Program-made: the position numbers and the translations under genes
The notes under the pieces: model-generated
Databases searched by the model: none
Seen by the model: only the letters and a program-made list of their open reading frames with translations
Told to the model about the DNA's origin: nothing
IMG/VR virus record: IMGVR_UViG_3300046542_000086
Span: 17,696 to 81,695 of that record
DNA: 64,000 bases
Origin: a virus
Direction: 5' to 3' (one strand)
Shown: positions 55,451 to 64,000 of the stretch, piece after piece
Layout of the letters: each line of letters opens with the position of its first letter
Position numbering within the stretch: position 1 is the stretch's first letter

Positions 55451-55454
55451 TATG
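55451..55454 (+). promoter_or_regulatory. TATG late-type promoter before fibre 1
   Basis: TAATAGTATGGTG lies 58 bases upstream of ATG 55512, with AGGAG as ribosome site. The same AATAGTATG string precedes the tail sheath gene (8473-8481). Confidence 0.5.
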
Positions 55455-55511
55455 GTGCGTATTCTTTTACAGGCAACTATAACATTCGCTGTTTTCACAG
55501 GAGTCATCGGT

Positions 55512-57995
55512 ATGGCGACAACCTATACTTACCCATTTGACCCTACTGGTGCTGCGACAACTAACGCCGTTGCTAACGAGCGACACGTGTTGTCCCCACC
55601 AGCATGGAAGGACTTTTACTTCATAGTCCCTAAGTTTGCCCCTTACTTCCGGGACTCGTTGCGGGTGATCCATCGCCCGTCAGGTAAGCTCCTCGTCGAA
55701 GGTAAGGATTACCATTGCACTCACTACTTCCACGCAGCTTCTCACGGCGTGGCACGGCGAGTGTACGGTTCAATCACGATGCTCGACAAGACGCTGATCG
55801 GTGTCCTCGAGATCAACTACCAAACCCTCGGCGGTGACTGGGTACTGGATGCGTCGGCTGACTTGACTCGTCTGACCAACACGCTGACCAACCCTCGGAT
55901 TACTACGTGGGAAGAAGTGGTTGATGTTCCATACCAGTTCCCTCCTATTGATCACCAGTGGGACCTCGAAGACCTCAAGGGCGTTGAAGCCATCCTTCCG
56001 ATTCTGGAATCGATGACTGAAGCAATCCGCGACTCGGCTGGTTCTTCGTTTGCATTGCACATCGCTGACAAAGCGAACCCTCACTCGGTAACGAAAGACC
56101 AAGTGGGACTTGACCAAGTTCAGAACTTACCCATTGCGAATATTTCAGAGGCCAACGCTGGTACTCTCAATACTCGTTACATGACGCCTGTTCGCACCAA
56201 GAACTTCGTTGACGCCTACGTCGTACCGTTGCTCGAAACCCACAAAGCGGACTTGAACAACCCTCACGGGACGACCAAGACGCAAGTGGGTCTGGGCTTG
56301 GTTGAGAACTTCAGCATCGCTTCACAAGCAGAAGCTGAGACGGGTAGTGCGACTAACCGTTACATGACTCCGTTGGCGGTTAAGCAAGCCATTAACATGT
56401 TGGCGAACACCGGCCTGTCTACGCACTTGGCAGACATCAACAACCCACACCAAACCACCAAAGCTCAAGTGGGCCTCGGTAGTGTGGAGAACTTGCCGGT
56501 AGCGACGACTGCTGAGGCTGAGGCCGCTGCACGTAACGACCGCTACATGACTCCACTGGCAACCGCTAAGCAGATCCAGGTCTTGGTCAAAGACTCGATG
56601 GACTTGCACTTGAACGCGGTGAACAACCCCCACTTGACCACCAAGGCTCAGGTAGGGTTGGGTAACGTTCAGAACTACCTGACCGCCACTCAAGCAGAAG
56701 CCGAAGCTGGCTTGATCACCACTGCGTACATGACGCCGTTGATGACTCGTAAAGCGATCGAAGCGATTGCTACTGGTTCCATCGGTTCTCACTTGGCTGA
56801 CAGTAACAACCCCCACGCTACGACTAAAGCGCAGGTAGGTCTCAGTAACGTAGAGAACTACACCATCGCTAACACCACAGAAGCTCAGGTGGGGGATTCC
56901 AATACCCGCTATATGACCCCTCTGTTGGTAAAGGCGGCGATTGATGCACAAGTGGGTACTGGGGTGTCTGGTCACGTTAGTGCTGTGAACAACCCGCACC
57001 AAGTGACTGCTGTTCAAGTCGGTACGTACGCTTCGGGTACTCTGGACACCATGTTCGCTGCTAAGCTGGGTACTCTGGCTATGGCTGCTGATTCGGCTGG
57101 TCTGGAAGGACACACCTACGAGGACGTGTTGGTAGCTGCGAAGAGTCAAGGGACTTTGAACTCGGATAAACTGGGTAACCAAACTCTCGCTCAAGTACTG
57201 GCTTCCGCTAAGGCTCAGACCGCTGATAACTCCACGCTACTCGGCGGCAAGACGGCAACTCAGATCGGTGACGAACTGGTAGCGGCTCTGGCTTACACCA
57301 AGCAACTACGTGTGCCTGACTACGCCATCGCTAACGATGCCACTAACAAGTGGATTCCACTGTGTAAAGCGTCCCCAGTGGTCAACATCGACACCGATGA
57401 CCTATGCATCATGTTCAACGGTCTGAACGAGGTCAGTGGTCGGACCATCACCGGCATCATTGACCTGAACACTACCGCTCTGACGTCGTCTGTTACGATC
57501 CTGTCGGGACACGTCACGGACTTGGAGATCTTGTACACGAACGTCGGCGGTGTATTCCGACTGTGGTACAAAACCAATGCCAACGAACTGTCGACCACGA
57601 CCTTGACGCTGATCTCTGGTAAGTCCTTCACTGAGATTGATCCAGCAGCGGTGGTGTCTGCTACAGCTCCGGCTGGTGCAGTGCTGATCCCAATGGTTGC
57701 CGTTGCTCCTAAACGGATCGCCTCAGAGTTCGTCACGCTGGCTGCTGCTGCTAACAAAGAGTACGACCTGCAAACGTTGCTGGGTGCCAGTCACGCAGCT
57801 TACGACAAAGACGGTGCTCTGGTTCAGGTGCGTGTGAAAGACGTACAGGCAGGTTCGCCTACGCTTAACATGTACATCACTCCTCCTGCTGGCGTTGTCA
57901 CCGCTCTGCGGGCTAACCGGTATGTTCGGGTGTTGAACTCTACTGCTGCTTCGGTAGATCTCCAAATCCGTGTAGACGTACCCCGTCTTCCATAA
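55512..57995 (+). CDS. Tail fibre 1 with 61-aa repeats
   Basis: An 827-residue receptor-binding or fibre protein. Order: N-terminal attachment domain (1-185) beginning TTYTYPFDPTG; six repeats of 61 residues (about 187-500), each with NNPHxTTKAQVGLG, then a TxAEAExG and a RYMTPL segment, as in the phage fibre repeat family (PF03406-like); a spacer; and a distinct beta-rich C-terminal domain (about 600-827) likely to contact the receptor. ATG 55512 is chosen from AGGAG. It shares domain plan with the next gene. Confidence 0.83.
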   Translation: MATTYTYPFDPTGAATTNAVANERHVLSPPAWKDFYFIVPKFAPYFRDSLRVIHRPSGKLLVEGKDYHCTHYFHAASHGVARRVYGSITMLDKTLIGVLEINYQTLGGDWVLDASADLTRLTNTLTNPRITTWEEVVDVPYQFPPIDHQWDLEDLKGVEAILPILESMTEAIRDSAGSSFALHIADKANPHSVTKDQVGLDQVQNLPIANISEANAGTLNTRYMTPVRTKNFVDAYVVPLLETHKADLNNPHGTTKTQVGLGLVENFSIASQAEAETGSATNRYMTPLAVKQAINMLANTGLSTHLADINNPHQTTKAQVGLGSVENLPVATTAEAEAAARNDRYMTPLATAKQIQVLVKDSMDLHLNAVNNPHLTTKAQVGLGNVQNYLTATQAEAEAGLITTAYMTPLMTRKAIEAIATGSIGSHLADSNNPHATTKAQVGLSNVENYTIANTTEAQVGDSNTRYMTPLLVKAAIDAQVGTGVSGHVSAVNNPHQVTAVQVGTYASGTLDTMFAAKLGTLAMAADSAGLEGHTYEDVLVAAKSQGTLNSDKLGNQTLAQVLASAKAQTADNSTLLGGKTATQIGDELVAALAYTKQLRVPDYAIANDATNKWIPLCKASPVVNIDTDDLCIMFNGLNEVSGRTITGIIDLNTTALTSSVTILSGHVTDLEILYTNVGGVFRLWYKTNANELSTTTLTLISGKSFTEIDPAAVVSATAPAGAVLIPMVAVAPKRIASEFVTLAAAANKEYDLQTLLGASHAAYDKDGALVQVRVKDVQAGSPTLNMYITPPAGVVTALRANRYVRVLNSTAASVDLQIRVDVPRLP
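56073..57050 (+). repeat. Six 183-bp coding repeats in fibre 1
   Basis: The NNPH (first copy ANPH) codons start at 56073, 56256, 56439, 56622, 56805 and 56988, an exact 183-base period. Core residues are conserved while codons vary, so selection keeps the protein repeat. The last copy decays after the VQVG segment. Confidence 0.92.
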
Positions 57996-58008
57996 GGAAT
58001 AGGTAATC

Positions 58009-59634
58009 ATGGGCACAATCATTCTTAAGTACCCAGAAGACCCTACTGGGGTAAACCCGAACAACCTGGTCATCAACGAACCTCACGACTTGGGTCCTGC
58101 TCGTAACCGAGCATTCGTTCCCAACTACGGCTCTTACTTCACAGAGTCGATGATTGTTACTGAGGCGGTGACCGGTCGGGTGCTCACCAAGGGTGTTCAC
58201 TACATCGCTGCACAACTGCAACAAGACGCCACGCTGGCGATGGACAAAGAGATTTGTGCCGTCGTCGTGGTGATCGATGAAAACGTGCGGGACTCGTTGC
58301 TGTTCACTTACCAAGTTGTTGGTGGTGTGTTCAGTACTTCGGCTGCTGCACTGGCGACGTTGATTGAAGCGTTGGACATTGACGAACGTGAAGTAGAGTG
58401 GGGTGGCTTGATCGGCATCCCTACCGCGTTCCCACCAGCGCCTCACCTCCACGACATCGGCGACGTCTACGGTTTCGAGTATCTGGTTGAAGCCCTCGAT
58501 GCTCTGCGTAACGCTATCTTGATTGGTGATGAATCAGCGCACGATGAACTGCGTCAGTACATCAACTACCAAGACGGTTTGGCGATTGCATCGATTGCTG
58601 ACCTGCGTGCTGACTTTGAAGGACACGAGAACAGCCGTAATAACCCACACGCTGTGAACAAGACACAAGTTGGCTTGGGTAGTGTGCAGGACTACGGCAT
58701 CGCGACCACTCAGGAAGCACAAGCGGGCATCGTCAACAACAAGTACATGACTCCGTTGCGTACTTACGAGGCGATCATCCAGTTGACCACTGGTCCGTTG
58801 AACGCTCACTTGACGAACATGTCGAACCCACACCAAACCACTAAGGCTCAGGTAGGGTTGGGGGTAGTCGAGAACTATCAACCATCGACACAAGCTGAAG
58901 CGGAAGCAGGGACACGACCAGATCGGTACATGACCCCGCTGACGACTAAGCAGGCGATCACGCTGCAAGCGATCACTCCGCTCAACAACCACATCAACAA
59001 CGTGAACAACCCACACGCCACTACTAAAGCCCAAGTTGGTTTGGGTAGCGTATTGGATTACGGGATTGCGTTGCAGAACGAAGCAGAAGCCGGTACCTCG
59101 AACCTGAAGTACATGACTCCTCTGCGAACTGCGAACGCGATTGCGGTGTTGGCTGTAGCTCCGTTGAACACACACATCGCTAACGTCAACAACCCGCATG
59201 CTACTACCAAGGCGCAAGTGGGTCTGGGGAACGTACAAGACTTACCATTGGCTACTTCGGCTGAAGCTATCGCAGGTGCGTCGAATGCCCGCTATATGAC
59301 TCCTGTCACTACGGCGAACGCAATCAACTCACAGATCATTGTAGCTTTCAACGCCCACACCGGTAACCTGTCGAACCCCCACGCTACGACTAAAGCGCAG
59401 GTTGGCTTGAGTGCCATTCCTAACGCTATCACTCGTTCTCGTGCGTTGAACAGCGATGCTTCGTTGTTGACTGCTGGTGGTATGTACGACCACACCATCT
59501 CTCTCGACCACGATGCTCGCTACGCTCCAAAGAACATGGCGGGTGTTGACTGTTCGGTACATTGGAACGGGGCTGGTGTGTTTGTTTGGGGCGGTGGTGC
59601 TTGGCGTCAAGTCTGGCCTGCTCAGTGGTCCTAA
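58009..59634 (+). CDS. Tail fibre 2 with 61-aa repeats
   Basis: A 541-residue paralogue of fibre 1, 13 bases downstream with AAGGAATAGG before ATG. The N-terminal 205 residues share the YPxDPTG start and general plan with fibre 1 but are diverged; five 61-residue repeats follow; the C-terminal 60 residues are short, ending in a Trp-rich segment (WNGAGVFVWGGGAWRQVW). The lack of a large tip domain suggests a shorter fibre, or that fibre 1 carries the receptor-binding head. Confidence 0.83.
   Translation: MGTIILKYPEDPTGVNPNNLVINEPHDLGPARNRAFVPNYGSYFTESMIVTEAVTGRVLTKGVHYIAAQLQQDATLAMDKEICAVVVVIDENVRDSLLFTYQVVGGVFSTSAAALATLIEALDIDEREVEWGGLIGIPTAFPPAPHLHDIGDVYGFEYLVEALDALRNAILIGDESAHDELRQYINYQDGLAIASIADLRADFEGHENSRNNPHAVNKTQVGLGSVQDYGIATTQEAQAGIVNNKYMTPLRTYEAIIQLTTGPLNAHLTNMSNPHQTTKAQVGLGVVENYQPSTQAEAEAGTRPDRYMTPLTTKQAITLQAITPLNNHINNVNNPHATTKAQVGLGSVLDYGIALQNEAEAGTSNLKYMTPLRTANAIAVLAVAPLNTHIANVNNPHATTKAQVGLGNVQDLPLATSAEAIAGASNARYMTPVTTANAINSQIIVAFNAHTGNLSNPHATTKAQVGLSAIPNAITRSRALNSDASLLTAGGMYDHTISLDHDARYAPKNMAGVDCSVHWNGAGVFVWGGGAWRQVWPAQWS
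58639..59433 (+). repeat. Five 183-bp coding repeats in fibre 2
   Basis: NNPH or SNPH codons start at 58639, 58822, 59005, 59188 and 59371, again an exact 183-base period, in phase with the fibre 1 repeat length. The motif NPHxTTKAQVGL is retained in all but the first copy, which has NPHAVNKTQVGL. Confidence 0.92.
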
Positions 59635-59656
59635 GTAGAAAAATATACCCGAGGGC

Positions 59657-59666
59657 AATGGTATAG
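59657..59666 (+). promoter_or_regulatory. AATGGTATAG promoter-like motif before maturation operon
   Basis: Ten bases identical to those at 46864-46873, followed by TTAATTAC, 26 bases before ATG 59693. It suggests that the modification operon has its own promoter apart from the fibres. Confidence 0.5.
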
Positions 59667-59692
59667 TTAATTACCAGCCCTTGGGGGTCGAG

Positions 59693-60202
59693 ATGTTGAA
59701 ACTAATAAACGACTTCACTTTTGATGGCATCACCGAAGCCAGTCTCAAACTGGACGACGTGTTAGCCAGCCCTTTCTTCTACGAGCAAGGGTTAGTGAAG
59801 TACGTGCTACTCGGCCAGTCTCACGATGCCTACAACCCGTGGGACTATATACAGAACTCTGCGAGCGTCTTTAAGATTGAAGGCTTTGAAAGATTCAGCT
59901 TAAAGATGTTCGACGAGTGCCGTTATTTGGCAGAACATTACAAACACCATGGTGCGATAACTTGCCATGTGTTTAAGTCCCCTAAGGGGGCAAAGAGTTT
60001 CCCTGAACACACTGATCCTGACGACGTGGTCCTGTACATGGTCAGTGGACAGAAAGAGTTCGTACATGACGGTGGCGTCTTGACCCTACATGAGGGAGAG
60101 ATCCTTTTGATCCCCGCTGGCACCAGACACCGTGCCGTCAACACTGAAGCTTCGGTTATGCTGAGCTTTGGGTTGGAGCGCTTCTTAGTTGAGAAACTGT
60201 AA
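59693..60202 (+). CDS. JmjC/cupin-type putative Fe(II) oxygenase
   Basis: A 169-residue protein whose second half has the plan of a small JmjC-like hydroxylase: H106-T-D108 (HxD), K121 in a VSGQKEF strand where 2-oxoglutarate-binding Lys is found, a HEGEILLIPAGTRH segment, and H146 as third iron ligand. Such enzymes hydroxylate residues of proteins. The start is ATG 59693 with a G-rich site. It shares the TAATG junction with the radical SAM gene, so it is translated with it. It could alternatively be a non-oxygenase cupin, for example a metal-binding partner. Confidence 0.65.
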   Translation: MLKLINDFTFDGITEASLKLDDVLASPFFYEQGLVKYVLLGQSHDAYNPWDYIQNSASVFKIEGFERFSLKMFDECRYLAEHYKHHGAITCHVFKSPKGAKSFPEHTDPDDVVLYMVSGQKEFVHDGGVLTLHEGEILLIPAGTRHRAVNTEASVMLSFGLERFLVEKL

Positions 60203-61236
60203 TGGGTAAGACGATCTACGTTAAGACTACCGGTGCGTGTAACCTTGCTTGCAAACACTGCTTCACCAACGGCAAAGACGGCGATAAAACTCAGTTCGAT
60301 CCCGTGCAAGTAGGGGATTGGATTGAGGACTATATGTCCCGTCATCCAGCAGGCACAGACTACCACCTAGAGTTCCATGGTGGCGAACCGTTTCTTGTGC
60401 CGTTAGAAAAGCTAGAGGTTTTGGCCTCTCGGTTCCACGAGCGTGAAGGCGTAGGGATGTGTGCGAACTCTAACCTGACCTTCAAGATTACCCCAGAGCA
60501 CGTGGCGTTCATCCAGAAGTACTTCTACGGCCACATTGGTACGAGTTGGGATCACTGGATCAGGTGGAGCAACCAGAAACAGTTTGACCTCTGGTGTAGC
60601 AACCTTGCGTTACTCCGTGGGGAAGGGATCTCGATCTACCTCAAGGTGTCGGTGAGTCGTGAACTACTGAAGATGGCTCCGGATTGGTTCTTGGACCAGA
60701 TCGAGTTCTTCGGAGTGAAGGAAGTTTCACTGGAGCGCTTAACGTTGGATGGTAGTGCCAATGAAAACTTGGACATCTTCCCTGACAACGAAGCCCAAGA
60801 CAACTGGTACCTTGCCCTCTACCAACGTTATAAAGAACGTAAAGGTACGGTAAAGATCCGCACCCTCGACATCATCGAGCAGAAGCTCAAGTACGGCATC
60901 GTTAAGGTAGACACCAACTGTCGCAACTGTGAGCAGAACCTCGTCACCATCAACTCTAACGGTGCTCTCGGGGGTTGTCCTAACGTTGCCACTACTCGAC
61001 AGCACTCCCGGTTGGAACAAGGTGCTGAGGCCTTCATTAAGTCTGATGGTCGGGTTGAAGAAATCGCCCAAGAGTTGACGTGGAACGAGAACTGCATTAC
61101 CTGCGACGTGTCTGACTTGTGTGGGGGCGACTGTCACCGTCTACCGTGGCAAGGGAATCGTTGTGGGGGACTGAAGAATACTTTGAGACACTTATCCGGT
61201 CGTTCACAACAGACCAACTTAATTTTGAAGGTGTGA
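60202..61236 (+). CDS. Radical SAM/SPASM peptide-modifying enzyme
   Basis: A 344-residue enzyme with the CxxxCxxC cluster-binding motif at C13, C17 and C20, and GGEP at 60-63 for SAM binding. The C-terminal part has a SPASM domain: C240, C243 and C259, then C298-xx-C301-x5-C307-xxx-C311-x9-C321, which bind further iron-sulfur clusters. SPASM enzymes modify ribosomally made peptides or proteins, for example by thioether or carbon-carbon crosslinks, or oxidise a Cys/Ser of a target as sulfatase maturases do. It starts on the stop of the oxygenase-like gene and ends one base before the Cys-rich gene, its likely substrate. Confidence 0.9.
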   Translation: MGKTIYVKTTGACNLACKHCFTNGKDGDKTQFDPVQVGDWIEDYMSRHPAGTDYHLEFHGGEPFLVPLEKLEVLASRFHEREGVGMCANSNLTFKITPEHVAFIQKYFYGHIGTSWDHWIRWSNQKQFDLWCSNLALLRGEGISIYLKVSVSRELLKMAPDWFLDQIEFFGVKEVSLERLTLDGSANENLDIFPDNEAQDNWYLALYQRYKERKGTVKIRTLDIIEQKLKYGIVKVDTNCRNCEQNLVTINSNGALGGCPNVATTRQHSRLEQGAEAFIKSDGRVEEIAQELTWNENCITCDVSDLCGGDCHRLPWQGNRCGGLKNTLRHLSGRSQQTNLILKV

Positions 61237-61237
61237 C

Positions 61238-61789
61238 ATGGCAAACGTAACTAAAGCTAGTGTACTCGAGCGGGCTAACGCTTGGCTCGCGGGTAACGGT
61301 AACGCAGGTATCTCGTGGGGTACGAACAACTACCCTGCCGGTGCTCTCGCTGGTTGGTTCGGTGGTACTACTGGCGGTGTGGCTGCGATGGCTGCCAACT
61401 CGTTCAGTGACGGTAATGCCAATGCTGCCTCGTTGGCTGCTGCCCTGCGAGCCTTCACCAACACCTTTGCCGCAATCCGCTTGACCCGCATTGTGATCTA
61501 CTATGCCAACAACACGGGTGAAGACTACGTCAACGCATTCAACACTGTGCAGTATGACGGTACAGCGATTGCTCACACGGCGTACTCGGTGGGTAACATC
61601 GGTGCTGGGGTCTCTCTCCCGGGCATGGTTGCTAACCAGAACCTGAACTACGCCAACCTCGAGGCGTCCTGTTCGAACCTGTGGTCCAGTTACTACAACA
61701 ACTGCCGTACTAACGCTCTGACATTGGTTAACACCGTATGTCACAGCAGCTGCCACGACAACTGCCACTGTGCACGCGGTCGTCGTTAA
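61238..61789 (+). CDS. Cys-His-tailed protein, probable substrate of the radical SAM enzymes
   Basis: 183 residues, GAAGG before ATG. The first 140 residues are Ala, Gly and Asn rich with no Cys and one His. All six Cys lie in the last 39 residues: C145, C156, C168, C172, C176, C178, with His directly after C168, C172 and C176, followed by an ARGRR end. This Cys-His pattern at four-residue spacing is unlike common zinc fingers and looks like a modification or metal site. Adjacency to the SPASM enzyme suggests a precursor-like substrate. Whether it is secreted, cut or built into the virion is unknown. No family recognised. Confidence 0.75.
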   Translation: MANVTKASVLERANAWLAGNGNAGISWGTNNYPAGALAGWFGGTTGGVAAMAANSFSDGNANAASLAAALRAFTNTFAAIRLTRIVIYYANNTGEDYVNAFNTVQYDGTAIAHTAYSVGNIGAGVSLPGMVANQNLNYANLEASCSNLWSSYYNNCRTNALTLVNTVCHSSCHDNCHCARGRR

Positions 61790-61800
61790 AGGAGTTTCCC

Positions 61801-62532
61801 GTGGAAAAGATTCACTGTACTGCCCCGATTGGTTTGGCTGAACTGAAACGTAAGTTCACTGAAGACGTCGAGTTTGTGATCGACTACGACAACTCGCGCT
61901 TCAAAGGTAAGACGCTGATCACTTACCTCAGTAACTTGGACATCCAAGTCCGTCTGGACCTGAAAGACCCAGAAGCGATTCAGGTACTCCTCGCTGACTA
62001 CTTGAACATGTCGGCTATGGTCAAGATCGCTGACCTCGAAGAACTGGCGATGAACGTATTGCTAGCCTTCTGTCAAAAGCCTTACGTGTTGCCGTTTGAT
62101 TCGGCACCGTTCATTCAGGCTAACCGCGACATCCTGGACGTCTGGACTCGTCGACTGCAATCTCTGCCGTTGTACGCAATCCACACGATGGGGGAAAAGT
62201 ATCACGACTACGTTTTCAGTTTCCCTGAAGACCGTGATGACTCGGTAGTGGGTCTGAACTTCGTGAACCTGATCAAGCTCCCGATGTTTGCTGTGCTGAT
62301 CGCTGGTGTAGAAGAAACCGCCTACACTTGGAATAAAACCTTCTTTACCGACTACGTGTTTGGCGGTAACAACCTGTTCAACTACTTCGCCGTGAAAGAG
62401 AACCCGCTGTTCATTGGTGTACTGGCGTTGCAAGACCAGGCCTCCTTTGACTCAGTGGTACCTCAGTTGATCGCAGCTGAAGCTGACGCAGAACGTCAGT
62501 TCAAGGAGCTTACACATGTACCATCTGTTTAA
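61801..62532 (+). CDS. Unknown protein of the maturation operon, 243 aa
   Basis: GTG 61801 is chosen because AAAGGAG lies just before it; an earlier frame start would overlap the Cys-rich gene. A soluble protein with mixed composition and codon use of well-expressed genes. No motif. Its last 17 bases overlap the next gene. It could be a substrate carrier, a peptide-recognition partner or a virion part, but none is visible from sequence. Confidence 0.65.
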   Translation: MEKIHCTAPIGLAELKRKFTEDVEFVIDYDNSRFKGKTLITYLSNLDIQVRLDLKDPEAIQVLLADYLNMSAMVKIADLEELAMNVLLAFCQKPYVLPFDSAPFIQANRDILDVWTRRLQSLPLYAIHTMGEKYHDYVFSFPEDRDDSVVGLNFVNLIKLPMFAVLIAGVEETAYTWNKTFFTDYVFGGNNLFNYFAVKENPLFIGVLALQDQASFDSVVPQLIAAEADAERQFKELTHVPSV

Positions 62533-63571
62533 CTCGGTGTACGTCGACACTGAACGCCGGGTTAACCGGGCGGTCAGCAACATCACTATCTCGAAACACA
62601 TCGGCTTTGAGTATCACCCAGGGCCGAATGAACAAGCGGGTGAGCAGATTGGCTTTGCTCAGTCGTTGGATGACGTAGAACCTCGCGTCCTGTTGGCTTG
62701 GCTGACACTGGCGATGCAGCAGGAAGAAAAAGTATTCATCTACTGCGATGGCGAAACGTATGTACGACTGTATTCCTTGCTCGTGCGTACCGTCTTCCCG
62801 AACCTTGACCTGCTGACCTACAAGTGGATCATGCTCTGCAAGAAGGCTACGTTGCACACCTCACTCACCAACTGGAAACAGGCTGGCTGTGAAGTACTGG
62901 CTGGCGTAGAGCTGAACACTGCAACCATCACTGCGTCGTTCGAGAACCCAGATCCACTGACGTCGATGTTCAAAGAACTGCTGTCTACTGACCGTGACGT
63001 TCTGTCGTTGGAATGGCAACTGGTTCGTCTGATGGCTGAAGGTACGGTAGGTTGCATCCCTGCTCGTCTGAAGAACATCCTGCGTCGTATCGCTTTGGCG
63101 AACACTCACGATGCGCTGGACGTTTGGGGTCGTGTGATTACCGATCCTCAGCACTGGGAATTCGCTGGTGCTGACCTCGACACGCTGTTGGATGCTCCTT
63201 CGGTGTTTGAAGGTTGTATGTTGTTCCAGTACACCAACAACCGGATGTTCCTCAAACCCGGTACGTTGGAGAAGACTCCGAAAGACAACTGGTTGATCGG
63301 TCTGCTGCGTGAACTTGATCCACTGCTCGAACGTGTCGGCGAACCTGCGACGGCCAAACGGACTCGTCTGATTCTTGAGATGTTGGAATCGGAAGACGAT
63401 CTGAATGACCCAGCTGTGCTGCTGGAACGCGTCAAGCAGATGTTCCTCGGACCAGATCGTTTGGCTCTGCCTAACCGGGACTCGAGCAAGTACGACGAGA
63501 ACCTGATCCGCTACCTGTTGGGTCGTTCGGACATTGACCTAGCTTATTACCTAGAAGGGGCTACATGGTGA
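62516..63571 (+). CDS. Unknown protein of the maturation operon, 351 aa
   Basis: AAGGAG lies five bases before ATG 62516. A soluble, leucine-rich, mostly helical protein with several Trp and Cys but no cluster. It overlaps the second radical SAM gene by seven bases, so the three genes 61801-64000 are strictly coupled. Not recognised; a scaffold or leader-binding role is a guess. Confidence 0.65.
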   Translation: MYHLFNSVYVDTERRVNRAVSNITISKHIGFEYHPGPNEQAGEQIGFAQSLDDVEPRVLLAWLTLAMQQEEKVFIYCDGETYVRLYSLLVRTVFPNLDLLTYKWIMLCKKATLHTSLTNWKQAGCEVLAGVELNTATITASFENPDPLTSMFKELLSTDRDVLSLEWQLVRLMAEGTVGCIPARLKNILRRIALANTHDALDVWGRVITDPQHWEFAGADLDTLLDAPSVFEGCMLFQYTNNRMFLKPGTLEKTPKDNWLIGLLRELDPLLERVGEPATAKRTRLILEMLESEDDLNDPAVLLERVKQMFLGPDRLALPNRDSSKYDENLIRYLLGRSDIDLAYYLEGATW

Positions 63572-64000
63572 ATCTGATACCGTTGGTTGACATACTCCAA
63601 GAGAAGAAAGGCGATACCAAAGAAGCACACCTGATTCTCTTTGAGAAGTGTAACCTTCGGTGTTCGTTCTGCCATCAGGATCATGACTCTGAAGTTGGCT
63701 TGGATGCTGGGGACATAATGCGCAAGGGCTTGAAGCTGATTGCTGAGAGTGACCTTGAAGCTCCCATCGTGATCAACATCACTGGTGGGGAGTTGTTCTC
63801 AGATAACATCGAGGACTGGGTGTTCGGCTACTACTTGTCGTTAGGACAGTTGTTGCTGAAGAACTTCAAGCGGGCTAAGTTGGTCTGGGGTACAAACCTG
63901 ATCTACAGTGATCTCTGGCGAGTAATGCGGTTGATCAGCATGTTGCGGGCTGGGGCTACCAAAGACCAGACCGTGTGCTTGGCAACGTCGTACGATCCAG
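63565..64000 (+). CDS. Second radical SAM enzyme, cut by window end
   Basis: ATG 63565 (AAGGGG upstream) opens at least 145 residues running past the window. CxxxCxxC is at C29, C33, C36 and the GGE motif at 74-76 (NITGGELF). The N-terminus differs from that of the first enzyme, so this is a different subfamily, not a duplicate. A C-terminal SPASM or other domain cannot be judged. It is the last visible gene of the operon. Confidence 0.85.
   Translation, partial: MVNLIPLVDILQEKKGDTKEAHLILFEKCNLRCSFCHQDHDSEVGLDAGDIMRKGLKLIAESDLEAPIVINITGGELFSDNIEDWVFGYYLSLGQLLLKNFKRAKLVWGTNLIYSDLWRVMRLISMLRAGATKDQTVCLATSYDP

Follow-up and report, generated by a model that had tools for sequence, protein, structure and literature searches.

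We analyzed a 64,000-base window of a virus contig 81,695 bases long (IMG/VR record IMGVR_UViG_3300046542_000086; positions 17696-81695), focusing on six coupled plus-strand genes at its 3' end, hereafter the cassette. These encode a predicted cupin/JmjC-like oxygenase, a radical SAM/SPASM enzyme (rSAM1), a small protein with a Cys- and His-rich C-terminal end (the tail protein), two conserved proteins with no function assigned (F5 and F3) and a second radical SAM enzyme (rSAM2). The same genes recur in other phages, usually after tail-fibre genes, as well as in chromosomes of Bdellovibrionota, and the end of the tail protein stays fixed among relatives whose remaining sequence has diverged. 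The cassette is probably a protein-maturation cluster whose substrate is a small fibre-linked adhesin or tip protein, modified at its C-terminal tail.

The six open reading frames lie at 59693 (or possibly 59681)-60202 (oxygenase), 60202-61236 (rSAM1), 61238-61789 (tail protein), 61801-62532 (F5), 62516-63571 (F3) and 63565-64000 (rSAM2). Our recomputation exactly reproduced the overlaps of 1, 17 and 7 bases and the gaps of 1 and 11 bases on which their coupling had first been proposed. The original prediction also called the system complete, which does not hold for the window: gene 6 ends at the contig end with 145 of about 336 amino acids present (a full-length homologue from locus L131 has 336). 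Because the 81.7-kb contig ends within this gene, the operon is seen in part, and the window captures just the beginning of a larger cluster.

The central evidence comes from the 183-residue tail protein, which ends in C-H-S-S-C-H-D-N-C-H-C-A-R-G-R-R (CHSSCHDNCHCARGRR; 61739-61786, plus strand). The CHxxCHxxCH pattern arose in 0 of 200,000 shuffles of this protein, so the Cys-His tail noted earlier is real. Across the family, the C-terminal consensus reads [V/I]CHxSCHxSCHxSRGRR, followed immediately by the stop codon. Among the matches listed, 171 distinct tails keep C, H, C, H, C, R, R and R invariant, retain the third His in all but one (170/171) and carry Ser at the three x-Ser positions in 147-168 cases, with an information content of 4.27-4.32 bits per column in the core vs. 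roughly 1-2 bits immediately upstream. Since the pattern that retrieved most of these 171 loci itself demands the Cys, His and Arg residues, an unbiased count has to come from loci found through rSAM1 without selection for the motif. Of these 80, the full tail follows immediately in 77, a shorter form (VCHSNCHINRSRR) in one (L151), and the contig breaks off in the remaining two. Up to eight different DNA sequences encode one and the same tail peptide; codons vary freely under a constant core, and selection therefore acts on the peptide.

While this end stays fixed, the body of the tail protein diverges almost beyond recognition among relatives. An AF2 model predicts an alpha/beta body and a disordered C-terminus, with a pLDDT of 85 overall, about 93-96 over much of the body and below 50 for residues 175-183, and the last 9-15 residues are predicted to be disordered. 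The body has no relatives in the PDB by profile or by fold, and its fold matches gp170 of phage Atu_ph07 (TM 0.57, 14% identity). Fold matches in BFVD were also found to three proteins of 504-660 amino acids from Myoviridae sp. ctijX18 (A0A8S5USJ8, A0A8S5USJ7 and A0A8S5USV2), which may be expanded versions of the tail protein in another phage. In two phages, the core is itself expanded to many CHSSCH units (L134 and L150); their CHSSCHSNVPV repeats (L134:11034-11714 and L150:11036-11737) amount to a natural experiment on core length. A short-peptide tblastn of the tail against phages and plasmids gave no matches, the query being too short and of low complexity, and tails were therefore sought by DNA patterns and enzyme profiles.

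Enzyme and tail co-occur in both directions. The tail reading frame adjoins rSAM1 in 78/78 evaluable loci found through the enzyme, and among the matches listed, 110 of 115 loci found through the tail motif have radical SAM genes within the fetched DNA, the remaining five having at most 1.65 kb of DNA downstream. A tail protein standing beside its candidate maturases is the precursor arrangement of ribosomally synthesized and post-translationally modified peptides (RiPPs). Together with the identity of the nearest enzyme families, which are mostly peptide and protein maturases, this adjacency supports the dedicated protein-maturation operon that had been proposed. Enzyme homologues confined to cofactor or nucleotide pathways, with the Cys-rich gene absent, had been named beforehand as the outcome that would speak against such an operon; we found the opposite.

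The enzymes themselves are consistent with this assignment. rSAM1 exceeds the cut-offs for the radical SAM domain PF04055 (29.7 bits vs. 29.5) and the SPASM domain TIGR04085 (27.5 bits vs. 27), and its CxxxCxxC motif and eight further Cys (C240, C243, C259, C298, C301, C307, C311 and C321) are invariant in 60/60 relatives, so that it has the CxxxCxxC motif, the 7-Cys pattern and the domain score expected of a SPASM enzyme. The CxxxCxxC motif reported for gene 6 is likewise present in the first 145 residues of rSAM2, which match a radical SAM family (phrog_1802, 5e-15). SPASM enzymes carry out radical chemistry on peptides and proteins, and in full-length profile comparisons, the named families nearest to rSAM1 include PapB, anSME, DynA and DarE. 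All radical SAM enzymes that we tested score far under every NCBIfam system cut-off, and none of them is therefore a named maturase. The product of gene 1 matches Cupin_2 (3e-12) and JmjC_2 (9e-8), each above the Pfam cut-off, shows weak matches to quercetin dioxygenase structures, and keeps the predicted H-x-D...H iron triad invariant in 60/60 relatives; on this basis it is classed as a cupin/JmjC-like oxygenase, with putative use of 2-oxoglutarate (2OG). JmjC-type cupins hydroxylate His and Arg, and 2OG oxygenases hydroxylate side chains.

Two partners recur with these enzymes. F5 lies directly 3' of the tail gene in 74 loci, matches phrog_20767 (2e-41) and gives a very confident AF2 model (pLDDT 94) that has no match in the PDB by sequence, profile or fold. 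F3 is present in 73 loci, with no family match in profile libraries and no convincing PDB match in a profile-only search. Since the tail protein and F5 are both unmatched in the PDB, the system is predicted to hold at least two folds with no solved relative.

To place the cassette among other genomes, we sought relatives by tblastn in phage records and also searched IMG/VR and bacterial and archaeal genomes (257 Gb). The rSAM1 gene was found in seven phage records representing six distinct isolates, namely pPa_SNUABM_DT01 (Pseudomonas), FLC6, FLC8 and SURPRISE13 (Burkholderia), Phosso (Sinorhizobium) and Atu_ph07 (Agrobacterium). The order of cupin-position gene, rSAM1 and tail protein is kept in all six, and their tail proteins, which share almost no body sequence across host groups, all end in CHxSCHxSCHxxRxRR. 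IMG/VR yielded 355 stretches coding for relatives of rSAM1 and at least 120 that match the tail pattern. Under the strict tail pattern, the bacterial and archaeal genomes gave just 19 stretches, of which about a dozen are real tails. Clustering of 87 loci gave the order fibre gene, cupin, rSAM1, tail, F5, F3, rSAM2, a variable part, rSAM3, rSAM4, F8 and an oxygenase, with the variable part drawn from 2OG oxygenases (F2, F9, F22 and F25), a B12-radical SAM enzyme (F19), a radical SAM enzyme (F6) and F16. Radical SAM genes number about 4-6 in a full cluster, alongside several oxygenase genes. Matches in Pfam and PHROGs put names to the oxygenases, to the B12-radical SAM enzyme and to the baseplate and fibre genes on either side. 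The gene set, sought in other phages as the original prediction had proposed, is therefore shared, with its order conserved over 80 contigs in addition to the six isolates. The accompanying claim of a jumbo phage system without precedent stands in part: no tested family or paper describes the system, but it is not limited to jumbo phages, occurring also in marine T4-like and Rak2-like phages and on Bdellovibrionota chromosomes.

We also observed a second architecture, such as in locus L057, where two tail proteins of about 127 amino acids follow right after the fibre gene and the same enzymes are reordered. Tandem tail proteins of about 130 amino acids are found in L011, L022, L061, L129 and others as well. 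In the cassettes of Burkholderia phages (L007 and L010), we noted two proteins annotated as dihydrofolate reductase, an activity that would not be expected among peptide-modifying enzymes.

The association with fibre genes proved much stronger than had been claimed. In the window, the first cassette gene begins 58 bases 3' of a pair of plus-strand fibre-like genes (55452-59634). The upstream member (55452-57995; PHROG tail/virion structural, E 6e-143) encodes a tail-fibre-like protein of family F7 with NNPHxTTKAQVGLG repeats, and the second (58009-59634; PHROG virion structural/tail, E 5e-154), directly 5' of the cassette, is of the same kind. The F7 family also lies 5' of the cassette in phiKZ-like relatives, and among 84 cupin genes scored, the nearest large gene upstream is F11 in 34 cases, F7 in 29 and F31 in 5; F11, F31 and several of the remaining upstream genes share the C-terminal domain of a tail-fibre family (phrog_19602/22593). 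In phiKZ-like, Rak2-like and marine T4-like backbones, tail-fibre genes usually precede the cassette, and in the T4-like marine phages it sits between baseplate-wedge and L-shaped-tail-fibre-assembly genes; the post-fibre position recurs in at least three unrelated backbones. Exceptions include L176 and L198, where the upstream gene is alcohol dehydrogenase-like, and L178, where it encodes a GTP cyclohydrolase.

Between the fibre genes and the cassette lies a plus-strand hairpin (59648-59685; -25.2 kcal/mol, z -3.0) with a TATAGTTAA element. The hairpin itself mostly does not recur in relatives. Scans for sigma-70 promoters and terminators gave chance-level results, so the promoter-like motif attributed to the operon has no sigma-70 signal above chance, but a TATA(A/G) element can be picked out by eye 5' of the cupin gene in some ten relatives as well, and this is perhaps a late promoter of a phage RNA polymerase.

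The cassette is also present in predatory bacteria. We found rSAM1 genes in 18 of 369 Bdellovibrionota genomes, many together with much of the cassette, and one copy lies on a 4.15-Mb contig. The tails of these copies have the same core or variants of it (CHGNFPPPCHGSRGRR, CHSSHSSHSSHSSRGRR and CHSNHCSHSNHGSRGRR), and some drop the Cys and keep His-x-Ser and RGRR (HSSHSSHSSHSSRGRR). We checked the neighbours at three loci, and each has a protein with Peptidase_S74, a phage-fibre chaperone, at its C-terminal end; two of these three neighbours start with a pilin-type methylation motif. Chromosomal loci include L274 (G107:C1:495001-515000), L232, L234, L236 and L265-L277, several of them beside Peptidase_S74/pilin-type or fibre-tip proteins; they possibly supply part of an undescribed predation organelle. 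In a midpoint-rooted rSAM1 tree, 18 of 19 bacterial entries form one clade (100/93), with Atu_ph07 and Phosso beside it and the remaining bacterial entry on a long branch among phages; the single bacterial clade argues against recent prophage contamination. Bdellovibrio bacteriovorus uses phage-fibre-like adhesins on prey (PMC10769870). The report on these MAT fibres differs in making no mention of radical SAM enzymes or post-translational modification, and the fibres differ from the S74 neighbours found here, two of the three of which carry a pilin-type N-terminus.

Comparison with known maturation systems revealed partial likenesses. Like the His-Xaa-Ser (HXS) system, which pairs two radical SAM enzymes with a protein of repeated His-x-Ser, some Bdellovibrionota variants read HSSHSSHSSHSS; unlike it, the phage core interleaves Cys (CHxS), and the cassette has many more enzymes and a fibre linkage. 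The tail protein of the window is unmatched by HxsA (TIGR03979), which hit the L276 variant tail only (E 0.008, 16 bits vs. a cut-off of 121.65, over 19 residues), the best scores to HxsB and HxsC were 34 bits vs. 370 and 31 bits vs. 267.9, and HxsD had no match among tail proteins, F5 and F8 (E up to 10) or F3 (E up to 1). Membership in HXS, expected from the His-x-Ser pattern, was therefore rejected on score. The PapB-type ranthipeptide/SPASM maturases are alike in that rSAM1 aligns with them over its full length, radical SAM and SPASM domains included (PapB 46 bits, DynA 40 bits), and in the C-x3-C frames of their substrates; rSAM1 nevertheless scores 46 bits against the PapB model NF047865 with its cut-off of 340, and in place of the short peptides of PapB, DynA and DarE the substrate here would be a folded protein of 130-300 amino acids with a fixed end and no recognisable leader. 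We recognised no peptidase among the annotated cassette genes, and the body of the tail protein is predicted to be folded.

The anSME family acts on Cys or Ser of a full-size protein in the context C-x-(P/A)-x-R, and the last core Cys here stands in C-H-x-S-R, where the third motif position is Gly, Ser, Thr and others rather than Pro. rSAM1 scores 42.4 bits against the anSME model TIGR03942 (cut-off 349.45). In anSME, an Asp after an auxiliary-cluster Cys is the catalytic base; the alignment places Pro-Asn at this site of rSAM1 in 58-60 of 60 relatives (Pro in 58/60). Formylglycine formation from the last Cys, which we considered for the C-H-x-S-R context, became less likely with this Asp missing.

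Earlier descriptions of phages list the components singly. Excerpts of published reports name individual radical SAM genes in FLC6 (PMC8066314), SURPRISE13 (PMC11898562), phiRP12/31 (PMC5468394) and T4-like marine genomes (PMC5332604), with cupin and 2OG-oxygenase genes also listed in some of these phages, and excerpts on the pelagimyophage host-recognition island note radical SAM cassettes (PMC7029224). Within such excerpts of the open-access PMC literature, we found no phage radical SAM gene set that had been connected with any substrate, motif or role in maturation. The main radical SAM cluster of Campylobacter phage CP220, considered as a possible member, was ruled out, having neither the cassette families nor the tail motif. 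This different cluster (L231, 64000-86000) follows gp5/PAAR baseplate genes and includes amidinotransferase and sugar-transferase genes, and it may serve modification of another kind instead of metabolism.

Taken as a maturation pathway, the cassette could work as follows. rSAM1 would dock the tail of its substrate and, assisted by its auxiliary Fe-S clusters, abstract hydrogen and form bonds at the C-x3-C, His or Ser positions, the likeliest products being thioether or Cys/His cross-links. Tail residues (His, Ser/Asn or Arg) would next be hydroxylated by the HxD...H cupin and the 2OG oxygenases, further steps would fall to rSAM2-rSAM4 (plus the B12-radical SAM enzyme in some phages), and F5, F3 and F8 might serve as substrate-delivery or scaffold subunits. 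A variable body, a constant tail and a post-fibre position suggest that the modified protein would be a fibre tip or adhesin, borne by the tail fibre of the phage, or by the pilus or fibre of a predatory bacterium, where it touches the target cell.

Several points weigh against this account. The order cupin-rSAM1-tail is absent in some copies, and the Bdellovibrionota clusters are rearranged; a single core of 16 residues hardly accounts for so many radical SAM genes in each cluster; and that the tail is the modified part, what chemistry it undergoes and where in the virion it sits are what we infer from the genes and their arrangement. The main rival is that the fixed end serves as a recognition tag and is not itself modified: the constant tail would act as a follower peptide bound by the enzymes, and the variable body would be modified, as in hypermodified RiPPs. 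The conserved part of most RiPPs does serve recognition, the number of radical SAM enzymes and oxygenases (including a KedN5/ApyD-like B12-radical SAM enzyme) suits many sites, and the bodies look, by impression and uncounted, rich in Asn, Thr and Gly. However, the model shows a well-folded body, which keeps its fold at 14% identity, unlike a flexible core, whereas most of the Cys and His residues sit in the tail, which is predicted to be disordered and expands as repeats, and we regard this rival as rather unlikely.

Ranked just behind it, and unlikely as well, is a RiPP-like effector, intracellular or released, that acts in superinfection exclusion, host killing or counter-defence and is no part of the fibre, the post-fibre position then marking late expression and a host-interaction island. 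The virion placement of the tail protein does derive from gene position only, and excerpts on pelagimyophages describe host-recognition islands with other host-altering genes beside their radical SAM cassettes (PMC7029224). Yet the same position in at least three unrelated backbones and the fibre-chaperone genes adjoining several Bdellovibrionota copies favour a fibre part, the clusters contain no recognised transporter or protease gene, and the body of the tail protein is large and folded.

We consider it very improbable that the tail is an unmodified metal site (Zn, Fe or Cu) or haem anchor, with the enzymes acting elsewhere in the particle. Its C-x3-C-H spacing with three Cys and three His would fit, and metal-tipped phage spikes exist, but an obligate rSAM1 and the near-constant cupin, F5 and F3 would be left unexplained, and Bdellovibrionota variants lose the Cys yet keep His-x-Ser and RGRR. 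Auxiliary metabolism, in which radical SAM enzymes raise host cofactor or Fe-S metabolism, is the published interpretation of the rich radical SAM content of Campylobacter phages CP220 and CPt10 (PMC2853527) and would suit excerpts describing phages with many radical SAM and Fe-S related genes (PMC5332604), but it is scarcely credible here given the SPASM architecture, the best matches to peptide maturases, the strict linkage to one small invariant-tailed protein and the separate nature of the CP220 cluster.

Modification of a fibre-linked tip protein at its tail remains our favoured reading, and a protein ending in Cys, His, Ser and Arg, with a set of radical enzymes beside fibre genes, points to an undescribed, chemically modified surface part for gripping or entering prey cells. 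Our analysis names a substrate and a likely purpose for phage radical SAM sets long listed as unexplained or "metabolic", and it offers potential new peptide-modifying enzymes with a defined 16-residue target. The proposal is directly testable, as the isolated phages DT01, FLC6, FLC8, SURPRISE13, Atu_ph07 and Phosso carry the cassette. More tentatively, phages and predatory bacteria might share an invention in which a constant anchor, hypermodified by 4-6 radical SAM enzymes and several oxygenases, ends a variable fibre-tip protein and grips or breaches the target envelope. On this more tentative view it would be, to our knowledge, the first virion part matured by radical SAM enzymes, and phage adsorption and bacterial predation would share a chemical link. 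If the favoured reading is true, viruses would use oxygen-sensitive radical enzymes inside the infected cell to harden or arm a surface part chemically, and predatory bacteria would do likewise.

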